From Thiotrichaceae bacterium (GTDB lineage Bacteria > Pseudomonadota > Gammaproteobacteria > Beggiatoales > Beggiatoaceae), in the NCBI GenBank assembly GCA_011391085.1, contig JAABRD010000001.1, positions 124,001-188,000 of the forward strand: 64,000 bases of DNA, in the 5' to 3' direction. The notes below the pieces were generated by a model. It was given only the letters and a program-made list of their open reading frames with translations, was not told the DNA's origin and searched no databases. How positions within the stretch are numbered: position 1 is the first letter of the stretch; every line of letters starts with the position of its first letter. Of this stretch, positions 3,031 through 25,340 are shown piece after piece. The position numbers and the translations under genes are program-made.

Positions 3031-3570
3031 ATGTGGATAGTAATAGGTACACTGGGTGGACTGTCCTTATTTTTCGGGCTGTTACTGGGCTATGCAGCAA
3101 CCCGCTTTAAAGTAGAAGGCAATCCGATTGTGGAACAGATTAATACCATTTTACCTCAAATGCAATGTGGTAAGTGTAGTTGGCCCGGGTGTCGACCCTA
3201 TGCAGAAGCGATTATTCGGGGCGAAGCGGAGATAAACCAGTGTGCCCCTGGGGGAGAAACCGCCATGTTAGCGATTGCCCATTTGCTAGATCGAGAACCG
3301 AAACCCTTGAATGCGGAAGACCAAGTTGTTGCCGATACAAAGTTGTTAGCCGTGATTGATGAATCTGTCTGCATTGGCTGTACCAAATGTATTCAAGCCT
3401 GTCCTGTAGATGCTATTTTAGGTGCCCCAAAATTCATGCACACTGTCATTGCCCAAGAGTGTACAGGTTGTGATTTATGCGTGGCCCCTTGCCCAGTCGT
3501 TTGTATCAAAATGGTGCCTGTCCCGCTGTCGTTGACTACTTGGAAATGGCCTTATCCAAACAGTGGATAG
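3031..3570 (+). CDS. rnfB: Electron transport complex subunit RnfB
   Basis: 179 residues. An N-terminal membrane anchor (about 1-22) is followed by the RnfB 4Fe-4S motif with Cys46, Cys49, Cys54 and Cys71 (CGKCSWPGC). Two ferredoxin-like clusters follow (Cys114/117/120/124 and Cys144/147/150/154). It passes electrons into the Rnf complex. The last residues (NSG) and the TAG stop come from the repeat that starts about 3557, so the original C-terminus was probably different. Only about 20 residues follow the last cluster, within the range for short RnfB forms. Confidence 0.95.
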
Positions 3571-3788
3571 TGGATAACGGATAATGGATAGTGGATAGTG
3601 GATAGTGGATAGCGAAAAAATCAAGGTGGACTAGAGGCTTCAGCCGGTGGTTGTGGTACGTCACCGGCTAAAGCCTCTAGTCCGGCATAATTGATTCTCC
3701 ACTATCCACTATCCGTTATCCACTATCCATTCTCCACTATCCGTTATCCACTATCCGTTATCCACTATCCACTATCCACTATCCATTA
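3557..3788. repeat. Nested inverted repeat between rnfB and rnfC
   Basis: The outer layer is tandem GTGGATAGTGGATA-like units (about 3562-3614), matched by the inverse TATCCACTATCCAC units (about 3697-3785). Inside it is an inner hairpin with GGACTAGAGGCTTCAGCCGG at 3628-3647 and its complement CCGGCTAAAGCCTCTAGTCC at 3664-3683. The element contains the rnfB stop codon and ends just before the rnfC start. Confidence 0.9.
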
Positions 3789-3793
3789 CTCTC

Positions 3794-5239
3794 ATGCGTC
3801 TTTGGCAATTTCACGGCGGTGTACATCTTGACGGTCATAAAGAATTGTCCAGTCAAGTTCCCATTGCGCAAGCTAATCTACCCAAATTCTTAATTTTTCC
3901 TCTTCTTCAACATATTGGTGAACCCACGGAACCGATTGTTCATGTCGGCGATAAGGTTTTGAAGGGTCAAATTGTGGCCCACTGCTTTGGCAGTGATTGT
4001 AGTTTGATGATAAGTGCGCCCATTCACGCTTCTAGTTCAGGCACGGTGGTCGCTATTGAACTTCGTCCGGTTCCACATCCATCGCAGTTAACTGCTATTT
4101 GTATCGTCATCGAAACTGATGGTCAAGATGTCTGGACTGAACTGAACGCGATTCCAGATTATACCTCCCTATCTCCTGCCGCGGTGCGTGAACATATCGC
4201 CCATGCAGGCATTGTCGGACTCGGCGGGGCGGGGTTTCCTTCCCATGTCAAATTGCGACCGCAAGACATTGATACGCTTGTCATCAATGGTGCTGAATGT
4301 GAACCTTATATTACCTGTGATGACCGTTTGATGCAAGAATGTCCTCAAGATATTCTGGAAGGTGCGCAGATTCTCAGGCATACGTTGGGTGGTACAAAAC
4401 GGTGTATTATTGCGGTTGAAGACAATAAACCCAGTGCCTTTCAAGCCCTCTCCCAAGTGGCCCAAAGCACTTCGGTAGAAGTGGTCAAAGTACCCACTTT
4501 ATATCCTACTGGTGGTGAACGTCAACTCATCAAGGTGTTGACCGGTAAAGAAGTTGGACGCGCCCAATTTCCCGCTAGTATTGGTGTGGTGGTACATAAT
4601 GTCGAAACCACTCGCGCGGTCTTTCGTGCCGTCACTCAAGGACGACCCTTAGTTTCACGAGTGGTCACCGTGACAGGGAATGGAGTTGACTGTCCTCAAA
4701 ATCTGGAAGTTTTATTGGGCACTCCAATGCGCGAGGTCCTTGCCCAGTGTGGCAGGAAATCTGATATAGAACAACTGATTATGGGTGGCGGGATGATGGG
4801 ATATGCGTTACCCAGAGATGATTTGCCTATGATTAAAACGACTAATTGTTTAATTGCCTCAGGTCCAGGTGAACTTAGGGTACCTCCTCCTCTTCTACCC
4901 TGTATTCGGTGTAACGCCTGCGCCCAAGTGTGTCCTATTCATCTGCTACCTCAACAACTATACTGGCACTGTAAAGCCAAAGATTTTAAGAGAGCCCAAG
5001 CCTATCATCTCTTTGATTGTATTGATTGTGGTTGCTGTGCTTACGTTTGTCCCAGTCACATTCCGTTAGTTAGTTACTATCGTTATGCGAAGGCCGAAAT
5101 TCGGGCGTCGGAACGAGAACATAAAAAAGCTGAACAAGCCCAGCAACGGCATGAGTTTCGTCTGTTTCGTGTCGAACGTGAGAAGAAAGAACGGGCGGAA
5201 CGTCATAAGCAACGGGCGAAAGGAGTGGACAGTGGATAA
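3794..5239 (+). CDS. rnfC: Electron transport complex subunit RnfC
   Basis: 481 residues. Peripheral Rnf subunit that binds NADH and FMN and contains two 4Fe-4S clusters. The N-terminus WQFHGGVHLDGHKELSS is typical. GGAGFPSHVKL (about residue 149) and NGAECEPYITCDD belong to the Complex I 51-kDa-like domain. The clusters begin near Cys370 (CIRCNACAQVCP) and Cys409 (CIDCGCCAYVCP). A charged, coiled C-terminal tail rich in Glu, Arg and Lys follows. The final DSG and the TAA stop fall in the GTGGACAGTGGATAA repeat, as in rnfB. The ATG at 3794 immediately follows the upstream repeat. Confidence 0.96.
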   Translation: MRLWQFHGGVHLDGHKELSSQVPIAQANLPKFLIFPLLQHIGEPTEPIVHVGDKVLKGQIVAHCFGSDCSLMISAPIHASSSGTVVAIELRPVPHPSQLTAICIVIETDGQDVWTELNAIPDYTSLSPAAVREHIAHAGIVGLGGAGFPSHVKLRPQDIDTLVINGAECEPYITCDDRLMQECPQDILEGAQILRHTLGGTKRCIIAVEDNKPSAFQALSQVAQSTSVEVVKVPTLYPTGGERQLIKVLTGKEVGRAQFPASIGVVVHNVETTRAVFRAVTQGRPLVSRVVTVTGNGVDCPQNLEVLLGTPMREVLAQCGRKSDIEQLIMGGGMMGYALPRDDLPMIKTTNCLIASGPGELRVPPPLLPCIRCNACAQVCPIHLLPQQLYWHCKAKDFKRAQAYHLFDCIDCGCCAYVCPSHIPLVSYYRYAKAEIRASEREHKKAEQAQQRHEFRLFRVEREKKERAERHKQRAKGVDSG

Positions 5240-5526
5240 TGGATAACGGATAGTAAATAACTACGGTGGTCTAGAGGCTTCAGCCGGTGGTTGTGGTACG
5301 TCTCCGGCTAAAGCCTCTATGCCATTAAGTTAAGGTAGGGTGGTTTAAGCGTAGCGTATCCACCAGAGTTTCGAAAACGGTGGATACGCTTCGCTTAATC
5401 CACCCTACTTTGGAATTGCGGCTAAAGCCTCTAGTCCCACTCCACTGTCCACTGTCCATTATCCACTGTCCACTATCCGTTATCCACTGTCCATTATCCA
5501 CTAAAGTCCACTTTCCACTAAATAAA
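5225..5526. repeat. Three-layer nested inverted repeat between rnfC and rnfD
   Basis: From outside in: GTGGATAATGG-type units (5225-5252) paired with the inverse TCCACTGTCCATTATCC units (about 5445-5520). Next is the CTAGAGGCTTCAGCC / GGCTAAAGCCTCTAG family (about 5269-5320, and again about 5413-5433). The core is TAGGGTGGTTTAAGCG...CGCTTAATCCACCCTA (about 5333-5406). Three dispersed repeat families are stacked inside each other. The element contains the rnfC stop and ends at the rnfD start. Confidence 0.88.
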
Positions 5527-6546
5527 ATGCCATTCAAAACCTCTCCCTCTCCTTTTCTATACGCACCCACCGACACTTCAGCTATCATGCGACAGGTGTT
5601 ATACGCCCTCGTCCCTGGTCTAGTGATTTACGTCTATTTTTTCGGGTGGGGCGTCGTCATTAACGTCCTCATTGCCAGTCTCACCGCCCTCTCTTCCGAA
5701 GCATTGGTACTCTGGTTACGAAACCGTCCCCTGCGTCCTTCCTTATCAGATGGCAGTGCCCTAGTCACCGCTTGGCTACTGGCCGCCGCCTTGTCTCCCT
5801 TCGTGCCTTGGTGGATGACTATGTTAGGCACCGCGTTTGCCATTATTGTTGTCAAACAACTTTATGGAGGACTTGGCTATAATCCTTTCAATCCCGCCAT
5901 TGCTGGTTACGCCATGCTACTAATTTCGTTTCCCGCCGATATGGGCAAGTGGCCAGCCCTTACTTCTCAACCTGGAATGCTAGATAGCTTGAGTATCATT
6001 TTTAACGGTCATCCCTTGACCGTACCCACGCTAGATGCTTTGAGTGGTGCAACGTTATTAGATACGGTCAAAAATTCTCTCAAACAATCTTATACCATCC
6101 AAGAAATTCAACAGCACCCCTTATTTGGCTATATGGGTGCCAAAAGTGTGGAAGTCATCAACGGTGTCTTCTTGTTAGGAGGACTTTGGTTACTATATAA
6201 ACGAGTGATTTCTTGGCACATTCCGGTGGCCGTCATGGGAAGTCTCTTTCTGATTTCGACTTTCTTCTTTGTATGGGACTCTGGTATTTATCCATCTCCC
6301 CTGTATCACTTGGTCAGTGGCGGTGTCATTCTGGGGGCTTTTTTCATTGCCACGGATCCAGTGACAGCGGCGACTTCCAATCAAGGGCGATTGATTTACG
6401 GTGCTGGAATTGGTATTCTCGTTTATATTATTCGCACCTGGGGAGGTTATCCCGACGGGATAGCTTTTGCGGTGTTGTTGATGAACATTACGGCACCCAT
6501 GATTGATTATTATACTCAACCTCGTGTCTTTGGATACCCGAAATGA
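5527..6546 (+). CDS. rnfD: Electron transport complex subunit RnfD
   Basis: 339 residues from the ATG at 5527. The frame stays open further upstream, but that part is repeat sequence, and MPFKTSPSPFLYAPTDT is the expected family start. Polytopic membrane subunit that carries a covalently bound FMN on a threonine. The motif is LSGATLL, with Thr176 as the attachment residue. GGLGYNPFNPA and the late FFIATDPVTAATS are family landmarks. It overlaps rnfG by four bases (ATGA), which implies translational coupling. Confidence 0.96.
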   Translation: MPFKTSPSPFLYAPTDTSAIMRQVLYALVPGLVIYVYFFGWGVVINVLIASLTALSSEALVLWLRNRPLRPSLSDGSALVTAWLLAAALSPFVPWWMTMLGTAFAIIVVKQLYGGLGYNPFNPAIAGYAMLLISFPADMGKWPALTSQPGMLDSLSIIFNGHPLTVPTLDALSGATLLDTVKNSLKQSYTIQEIQQHPLFGYMGAKSVEVINGVFLLGGLWLLYKRVISWHIPVAVMGSLFLISTFFFVWDSGIYPSPLYHLVSGGVILGAFFIATDPVTAATSNQGRLIYGAGIGILVYIIRTWGGYPDGIAFAVLLMNITAPMIDYYTQPRVFGYPK

Positions 6547-19405: not shown

Positions 19406-19451
19406 GACCACTAAGTTAGAAGATGGGTAAATAAACACTTGCATGGTGATA

Positions 19452-20125
19452 GAGAAAGGCATCCTCTCATTAGAGATTAGGTCTCCCCCCCACCCCAAAC
19501 CGTGCAGGAAACTTTCGCTTCACACGGCTTTCAAAAGTTTTGGTCGGGGCTTGCAGACCCAATGACCACCAGTCGGTTTAAAAAAAAAAAACGGCTGGCC
19601 TTAACTCACGGTCTTTGTAGATTAGTAACCCGTTTTAGTAGCGATAAGCTAATCCTCAAGTTGATTATCCTACCATAAAGTAGGCTCTCAATCAACTACC
19701 TTGAGGCTGGTTGAAAATCCAAAGAACTCTCATGAATTAAGAAACCTCCTAGCGTACTTTGGTTCCATTAATCTTTGGGATTCGTGTGTTTCTATCAACC
19801 ACGATAAATTAATCAGTCCATTGACTTACATACTATTACGCCTCTGTGAGATGATTAAGAATTAGCTAACACCTAGTCATGATGACACCTAATCACCTCA
19901 TCCCGAGTTTCAGTCGTTAAGTTTGTTATGTCAGTTTTAGGTAGTGTCTGTACCCCAGATGCCTTTTGGAGTGTTATACTCTAGGATGGACGAGAGTATA
20001 CAGGCAACTTTGACCCTGTCAAGTTTACGAGGCTTCCAGCAACACTTCAGAAATTTCTTTACCATGACTGACTCTCCAAGCGGTGGTGACCTTAAACAGA
20101 GCCTCCTAATTTCACCTTTCCGCAC
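19452..20125 (-). ncRNA. ORF-less group II intron (copy 1)
   Basis: Minus-strand ribozyme of roughly 670 bases. Domain V is the 34-mer at 19497-19530: a 10-bp basal stem, CC bulge, 4-bp distal stem and GAAA tetraloop, with the AGC triad. A GTGCGG start at 20125 followed by GTTTAAGGTCACC resembles the group II 5-prime end. Long blocks are shared with copy 2 (24670-25340), such as CTCACAGAGGCGTAATAGTA, GGTTGATAGAAACAC and AAAGTACGCTAGGA. The two domain V sequences differ by changes that keep pairing (for example AUGC/GUAU versus AAGC/GUUU). There is no reverse transcriptase ORF, so splicing or movement would need a protein from elsewhere. The 3-prime end is approximate. Confidence 0.82.
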
Positions 20126-24678: not shown

Positions 24679-25340
24679 TCAGCAAAGTCTTGGTAGAAGC
24701 CTCAAAAACTATACAGAGTCAAATATATCTATACTGGGATGTGAATGTGTCTCAGTAACACTCTAAAGATATATGGGGTAGAGGGACAACCTAACACGGC
24801 CATTAGATTCTAATTGACTGAAACTAGGGATAAGGCCAGAAATAGGCCAAGGACGACCAAATGGTTAAAAAGTTATTTCTGGTCTCACAGAGGCGTAATA
24901 GTAAGCAAGCTAAGGAAGGTTAATTTATCGAGGTTGATAGAAACACTCGAACCCAAGGAATACGTGGCTAAAGTACGCTAGGAAGTGACTTAAATAGTGA
25001 TTGAATATCTGAACTTCAAGTCGTGGGTAAAGGTAGTAGATTGAGAGCCTCCGGTTTCAAAGGAGGAGAATCAACTTTACCAATCGTCTAATGAAACGGG
25101 CGACTAAACACCTTGACCGTTTGCAGAAACCACTATTTAGGGCAATTGAGATAACTTGGAGGCCAACCGAAAAGGGAAACTAACCTCCTAAGACTGACAT
25201 TATCTATTGTGGTCATGGGTCACTATACCTAGACCGTCACTTTTGAAAGCCGTGTGATGCGAAAGTATCCCGCATGGTTTGGGGGGGGCAACTAATCCCT
25301 AGTGATAATCACTCGAGAAGATTTGTATCTCTATCACCAT
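24679..25340 (+). ncRNA. ORF-less group II intron (copy 2, 5-prime truncated)
   Basis: Plus-strand ribozyme remnant. Domain V is the 34-mer at 25247-25280 (AAGCCGTGTGATGCGAAAGT...): a 10-bp basal stem, CC bulge and GAAA tetraloop. Upstream blocks match copy 1 (GGTAGAAGCCTC, CTCACAGAGGCGTAATAGTA, GGTTGATAGAAACACTCGAA, AAAGTACGCTAGGA). The 5-prime GTGCG end and first helices are missing, since homology starts abruptly after the doc remnant. There is no intron-encoded protein. Both copies are followed by CTCTATCACCAT. The 3-prime boundary is approximate. Confidence 0.82.

Follow-up and report, generated by a model that had tools for sequence, protein, structure and literature searches.

We analysed the repeats between rnfB, rnfC and rnfD of the rnf operon in a window of 64,000 nucleotides (nt) from a Thiotrichaceae bacterium (assembly GCA_011391085.1, contig JAABRD010000001.1, positions 124,001 to 188,000). 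Our reading, held with moderate confidence together with the mechanism proposed below, is that both spacers are mosaics built of three types of repeat specific to the lineage: arrays of seven-base units (heptads, family A), hairpins (family B) and GTAG-headed palindromes (family C). An earlier sequence-only reading had placed three nested families here and attributed them to serial insertion of one into another. A stronger result than serial insertion is a polarity rule for the heptads at gene borders, namely that the purine-rich strand of an array is directed from the nearest gene into the spacer. The rule is simple and strong, and it was reproduced in separate DNA; it is therefore testable by strain comparison.

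The genome (G000) comprises 5.77 Mb in 140 contigs, and layouts were counted in two separate sets of its DNA of 1.23 Mb and 1.06 Mb (2.29 of the 5.77 Mb). Heptad arrays were called without regard to their letters, as period-7 runs of at least 28 nt with 18 of 21 matches. Gene borders were taken from a simple open reading frame (ORF) caller (at least 100 codons) and not from a gene finder, start codons being the weakest of these borders. The first set contains 94 arrays; after removal of 8 arrays within ORFs, 4 not bounded by genes on both sides and 1 whose sense was undecided, 74 of the remaining 81 show the inward polarity (binomial p 3e-15). The rule was spotted in the first set and then recounted in the second, where it holds for 49/56 arrays (67 arrays, edge ones already excluded, minus 11 within ORFs). 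At gene starts the inward polarity is found in 45/49 arrays of the first set and 29/32 of the second, and at gene stops in 29/32 and 20/24, respectively. Since the ORF caller may lengthen genes across stop-free inverse heptads, the polarity at gene starts could be flattered, an effect that hardly touches gene stops. An ORF ATG lies at most 36 nt beyond the pyrimidine sense in 49 of 91 arrays of the first set (3 of the 94 lie at stretch edges and were dropped) and beyond the purine sense in 3 of 91; the background beside random intergenic points is 87/2000. The corresponding values of the second set are 24/56 and 2/56.

Searches of the whole genome returned 401 places for a three-unit heptad pattern, 753 for a 15-nt B pattern and 404 exact matches for a 17-nt C pattern, and the reversed pattern of each gave 0 matches. 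The B hairpins fall into length classes of about 50, 72 and 84 nt (B1, B2 and B3). Heptads are found beside B1 in 28/42 and 24/41 cases (first and second set), beside B2 in 3/55 and 1/42 and beside B3 in 1/27 and 3/18. No heptads of outward polarity flank the B hairpins; in 600 random intergenic layouts, heptads were left-inward in 16, right-inward in 14, left-outward in 6 and right-outward in 1. Concerning the arrays of TGGATAR units, B or C lies at the inner side in 44/69 and 22/44 and at the outer side in 1 and 0. Among the 21 inverted heptad pairs that were printed, 17 enclose B or C, two enclose other long sequence and two are nearly empty (12 and 22 nt). The two arms of one locus are also alike, with a mean cosine of 0.65 vs 0.44 when permuted (18 loci, p 0.001). 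Since A accompanies B1 and not B2, a composite of the two fits better than serial events, and the inverted A arms contradict the insertion of B into a tandem array. Heptad arms frame other sequence with its own palindromes at G000:C50:52761-53051 and C47:26810-27136 (CTCGTTCCCACGCG... and GGTAGTGATGCAATGTGGGTGAA...); further repeat families thus exist. Tandem B half-arms, with periods of about 21 and 29–31 nt, are present at G000:C11:112492-112679 and C22:72196-72542, as would result if hairpin arms grew in steps of one half-unit.

Family C has a GTAG head with an adjoining imperfect palindrome of 20–40 nt (GTAGGGTGGATTAAGCGAAGCGTATCCACC), and its copies are paired, plus then minus, with an overall length of 74 or 76 nt in most pairs. 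There are 42 distinct inverted pairs in the 1.23 Mb set and 19 in the 1.06 Mb set. The genome contains a single match to the Y1_Tnp family (C75:34353-34640, which is locus L051 1306-1746 on the minus strand), within a stop-free frame of 170 codons. The gene is flanked on either side by C palindromes, the nearest ones in opposite orientation, and one flank has a tandem array. A related genome (G005) contains a 63% identical transposase with related GTAGGGTGGAATAG palindromes on both sides, whose head is GTAGGGTGG as in C. Because C flanks the only Y1 transposase of the genome, C is very probably a repetitive extragenic palindrome (REP) doublet forming hairpins (REPIN) mobilised by a REP-associated tyrosine transposase (RAYT), a designation which follows from its architecture. 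PMC2817692 describes RAYT genes as invariably located between two inverted REPs, and it lists a REP of Enterobacter sakazakii with the head GTAGGGtGGGTAAGCG. C resembles the REP/REPIN–RAYT systems, as far as the accessible text of PMC2817692 and PMC3116915 describes them, in its GTAG head, palindrome, inverted pairs and transposase gene between opposite copies; we saw no difference of kind, with hundreds of copies and one transposase gene. When 31 loci of Y1 transposases in the family were scanned with a simple pattern for GTAG palindromes, 3 gave a match, in one case with a GGAG head; as the pattern overlooked the known L051 copies, its misses mean little.

All three families lie between the rnf genes where the sequence-only reading had put them, and their features are listed in Table 1. 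The three ordered layers described for both spacers are present in rnfC–rnfD, which contains A, B and C, but rnfB–rnfC consists of A and B with no C. C had also been placed innermost, within the B hairpin; it lies rather between a complete B hairpin and an additional B half-arm. The outer A arms are inverted (TGGATAG ... CTATCCA), so they are not a single array split by an insert. The folding energy is -130.5 kcal/mol for the rnfB–rnfC spacer (z -18.0 vs shuffled sequence) and -145.4 kcal/mol for the rnfC–rnfD spacer (z -12.35).

Table 1. Features of the two rnf spacers and the adjoining genes (positions in the window)
Feature	Position	Strand	Remarks
rnfB	3031..3570	+	Stop TAG 3568-3570 within the first heptad
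A left arm, rnfB–rnfC spacer	3562..3612	+	Purine-sense heptads TGGATAR/CGGATAA, directed from rnfB into the spacer
B1 hairpin, 56 nt	3628..3683	.	GGACTAGAGGCTTCAGCCGGTG..CACCGGCTAAAGCCTCTAGTCC; rnfB–rnfC spacer
A' right arm, rnfB–rnfC spacer	3698..3787	-	Inverted left-arm heptads, ending 6 nt before the rnfC ATG
rnfC	3794..5239	+	Stop TAA 5237-5239 within heptads; C-terminal tail motif of the relatives missing
A left arm, rnfC–rnfD spacer	5224..5253	+	Heptads
B1 hairpin, rnfC–rnfD spacer	5268..5320	.	Final bases of the right arm replaced by the D motif
D motif	5320..5334	+	TGCCATTAAGTTAAG; often adjoins REPINs of the 74-nt class
C, REPIN of 74 nt	5335..5408	.	Inverted pair of GTAGGGTGG..CCACC palindromes; ends GTAG and CTAC
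Extra B half-arm	5420..5437	-	GGCTAAAGCCTCTAGTCC; rnfC–rnfD spacer
A' right arm, rnfC–rnfD spacer	5440..5503	-	Inverted TGGATAR/TGGACAR; about 23 nt separate it from the rnfD ATG
rnfD	5527..6546	+	Follows the rnfC–rnfD spacer

The stops of rnfB and rnfC both fall inside A heptads, as had been noted. The accompanying claim that the C-termini NSG and DSG are repeat-derived stands for the SG of RnfB and approximately for the VDSG of RnfC, whereas the N of NSG is encoded ahead of the array. RnfC ends in ...RAKGVDSG, without the tail motif of its relatives, a motif like IKAAVERAKAKK being found in 28 of 29 of them (a loose count by eye; the exception is locus L121). The RnfB tails past WKWPYP vary among relatives in both length and sequence, and that of the window is NSG only. 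Based on the 94 arrays of the 1.23 Mb set, a stop codon of an ORF lies within 3 nt in 16, RnfB and RnfC among them, and other array-borne protein ends include VDNG, MDNE and NNE. Annotators working on this lineage should therefore bear in mind that a protein end like DSG or VDNG can derive from repeats. By supplying stops and preceding starts, the repeats tie their own growth to protein ends and to translation.

The lineage was compared across 42 genomes of the family, none of which is a second species of the genus of G000. RnfC of the window is 66–73% identical to RnfC of 12 genomes or metagenome-assembled genomes named Candidatus Parabeggiatoa, Thiomargarita, Halobeggiatoa, Albibeggiatoa or Thiotrichaceae, which points to a member of the Beggiatoaceae related to the giant sulfur bacteria. 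There are 30 rnfC loci; rnfB is beside rnfC in 22, including our own, and 8 lack rnfB in the piece examined. RnfB matches (49–75% identity) lie upstream of rnfC in the loci of 15/20 named relatives. The distance from the last aligned RnfB residue to the rnfC start is 11–68 nt in 19/21 relatives, and 696 nt and 1007 nt in G027 and G028. Comparison with related rnf operons had been suggested, and 16 of the 21 have a short rnfB–rnfC spacer without heptads. Heptads like TAACTGA or TTAATGA stand just before rnfC in G027, G028, G029 and G038, and interrupted ones in G037. Three TGGATAR units in a row are found in 3/42 genomes (326 places in our own, 4 in G027 and 1 in G030), an 18-nt B pattern in 2/42 (737 in our own and 3 in G016) and the C head in 5/42 (404 in our own, 204 in G037 and 10 across three others). 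The reversed TGGATAR control matched twice in G027 and 19 times in G029, the latter perhaps reflecting yet another heptad word. Three TAACTGA units are found in 17/42 genomes, our own containing them once. The same nested structure in distant relatives would have pointed to a conserved regulatory element; A and B are nearly confined to our own genome among the 42. These distributions support the view that the repeat material is lineage-specific and not such an element. Other repeats occupy the rnf spacer elsewhere: GTAGGGGCAATCC forms a palindrome among TTAATGA heptads in locus L032 (Parabeggiatoa sp. nov. 2). The occurrence of unrelated repeats in the same rnf spacer of different genera argues for repeated invasion or growth and not for one conserved element.

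The mechanism that we propose for these mosaics has several steps. C would be moved via single-stranded DNA by the single RAYT (Y1 transposase) of the genome. B1 and its heptad arms, whose association is observed, would settle between genes as one composite hairpin. The heptads would lengthen by replication slippage, and template switching, in which one arm is copied across the hairpin, would maintain the similarity of the two arms and also explain why both face inward. Growth at gene ends would be tolerated because the sense TGGATAG has stops in all three frames, as read from its letters, and because, immediately ahead of a start codon, the inverse sense (YTATCCA, TTATTCA, TTTTCCA) is presumably tolerated or favoured. 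In the rnf operon the repeats would have taken the place of the tails at the C-termini of RnfB and RnfC and of their natural stops, and pushed apart genes which lie close in most of the relatives examined.

Several observations weigh against this account. TGGATAR arrays without B or C nearby amount to 25/69 and 22/44 in the two sets, which, together with the 4 of 21 pairs framing other sequence or almost nothing, argues that the heptads are independent of B1. The commonest heptad type is common to both arms in only 6 of 18 loci, and the spacer word GAAAAA linking A to B1 is missing from most B1 arms (present in 9/38 and 10/35). A remnant of the RnfC tail was looked for behind the insert in the window sequence and is absent there, so the event was not a clean insertion. 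Concerning the transposase, the listed RAYT ORF begins at TTG and an ATG lies farther upstream in another frame (by eye), so that damage to the start or to the gene itself is conceivable. For B there is no known mobiliser, the genome having been searched for the Y1_Tnp family and not for other transposases. A GTAG or CGTC head was absent from the hairpin ends of 54 isolated B copies (by eye), and the sole Y1_Tnp gene is flanked by C. Judged as a miniature inverted-repeat transposable element (MITE), the composite of A and B1 has inverted arms, and a related transposase was sought as Y1_Tnp only. Finally, the 42 family genomes include no close strain for a comparison with an empty site.

Serial insertion, in which heptads come first, B enters the heptads and C enters B by a hairpin-seeking mechanism, seems to us unlikely as the general explanation. 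The nesting order, which had been proposed for counting genome-wide, was counted in the 2.29 Mb and mostly holds: 20 of 21 enclosures have A outside B outside C. A surrounds B in 8 and 3 cases (first and second set), A surrounds C in 3 and 0, B surrounds C in 4 and 2, and C surrounds A in 1 and 0; the remaining orders have 0. The sole reversed nesting is a REPIN with heptads in its loop (G000:C52:372-468). REP elements or dimers within palindromes are also reported from three species in the accessible part of PMC3733652. In locus L034 (Parabeggiatoa sp. nov. 3, 1215-2260), the palindrome of the rnfB–rnfC spacer interrupts a TAACTGA array which continues in the same direction on both sides, possibly a clean insertion of a hairpin into heptads. 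Serial insertion is plausible for this palindrome and for C, the sole family with a recognisable mobiliser, but it does not fit A, which is tied to B1 and whose arms are inverted and not direct. REPINs lie at most 40 nt from B or D in 14/42 and 7/19 cases, against a background of 15% and 11% of intergenic bases (p 0.003 for the first set). This proximity belongs to the class of at most 75 nt (13/20 and 7/8; longer class 1/22 and 0/11), and the 74-nt REPINs adjoin B or D in 13/16. However, most REPINs lie elsewhere (28/42 and 12/19), and the shorter class has common flanks containing D, so that it may travel inside a larger element, which would equally account for its position. Nor do REPINs sit at palindrome centres: in a test of gapless complementarity of their flanks, none of 45 (including overlapping starts; 42 distinct) reached 13 of 20, and the mean was 8.76 of 20 vs 8.58 and 8.23 in controls. 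A general targeting of existing hairpins, as had been suggested, is not borne out by these counts. The case resembles that of PMC3733652, as far as its accessible text goes, in having REP dimers beside or inside another palindrome family, and differs in that mainly one REPIN size class is concerned, beside B or the B-joining D, and framed by heptads in some loci.

It is equally doubtful that the heptad leaders and hairpins are kept by selection for expression, as regulators of translation or mRNA stability in a network like that of TAACTGA, with a polarity that reflects function at start and stop codons and not copying. The fixed sense in which arrays adjoin starts agrees with this, as do the TAACTGA- and TTAATGA-like heptads before rnfC in the relatives named above. 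MacGregor (2015, PMC4679880) describes the TAACTGA direct heptads of marine Beggiatoaceae as lying mostly before start codons (at a distance of 1 nt in the largest class), for the most part lacking a ribosome-binding site and in some cases overlapping upstream stops, their forward sense having stops in all frames. On the other hand, the 16/21 relatives without heptads at rnfB–rnfC speak against such selection, and the sites are not clearly common to genera. The 44 loci of G027 include 26 genes preceded by TAACTGA, of which 6 have an orthologue in the examined G000 DNA and 1/6 has heptads; among 65 control genes, 16 have an orthologue and 1/16 has heptads, numbers too few to decide.

Less probable still is that heptads arise by chance at gene borders and that the orientations which extend a frame or offer a false start are removed as harmful. 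In favour of such a filter, the sense TGGATAG stops all frames and the sense TGGATAA offers an ATG near GGA, while the inverse does neither, as can be read from the letters; yet the filter leaves unexplained both the resemblance of the arms within a locus and the occurrence of heptads with B1 but not with B2.

Compared with known systems, our heptads share with the TAACTGA system the seven-base unit, the family and the position directly before starts in one fixed orientation. They differ in their units, which are TGGATAR, TGAATAA and TGGAAAA (in gene sense YTATCCA etc.), in the two inverted arms framing hairpins and in the fixed polarity at gene ends as well. Candidatus Thiomargarita nelsonii, of a related genus, likewise contains abundant palindromic elements, described as MITEs and in some cases located inside genes (PMC4853749, accessible part). 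Its hupL MITE has terminal direct and inverted repeats. These heptads and B hairpins are unnamed in the titles and abstract openings of the literature searched, in which the letters of the repeats were not a query and most subscription journals lay outside the scope. The parts are of known kinds (REPINs, heptads before genes, palindromic repeats); what appears to be new is their joining, in which hairpins are framed by inverted heptad arms that face the genes and provide stops.

Strain comparison could also address why the seven-base word at such sites differs from one relative to the next. One tentative idea, to which we give a low probability, is a border system of the Beggiatoaceae, in which a genus-specific seven-base word would stand with fixed polarity before starts and inverted at stops, with hairpins between. 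The word (TAACTGA, TTAATGA, TGGATAR) would turn over fast between genera and the grammar would stay; in operons like rnf, the word would do the work of a ribosome-binding site, a stop codon and a spacer.

A conserved regulatory RNA was rejected, as the spacers have no Rfam match and the structure is missing from 16/21 orthologous spacers. At gathering thresholds, the only Rfam matches in the window are two group II introns (RF00029), both outside the spacers, at 19443-19532 on the minus strand (57.4 bits) and 25245-25340 on the plus strand (50 bits).

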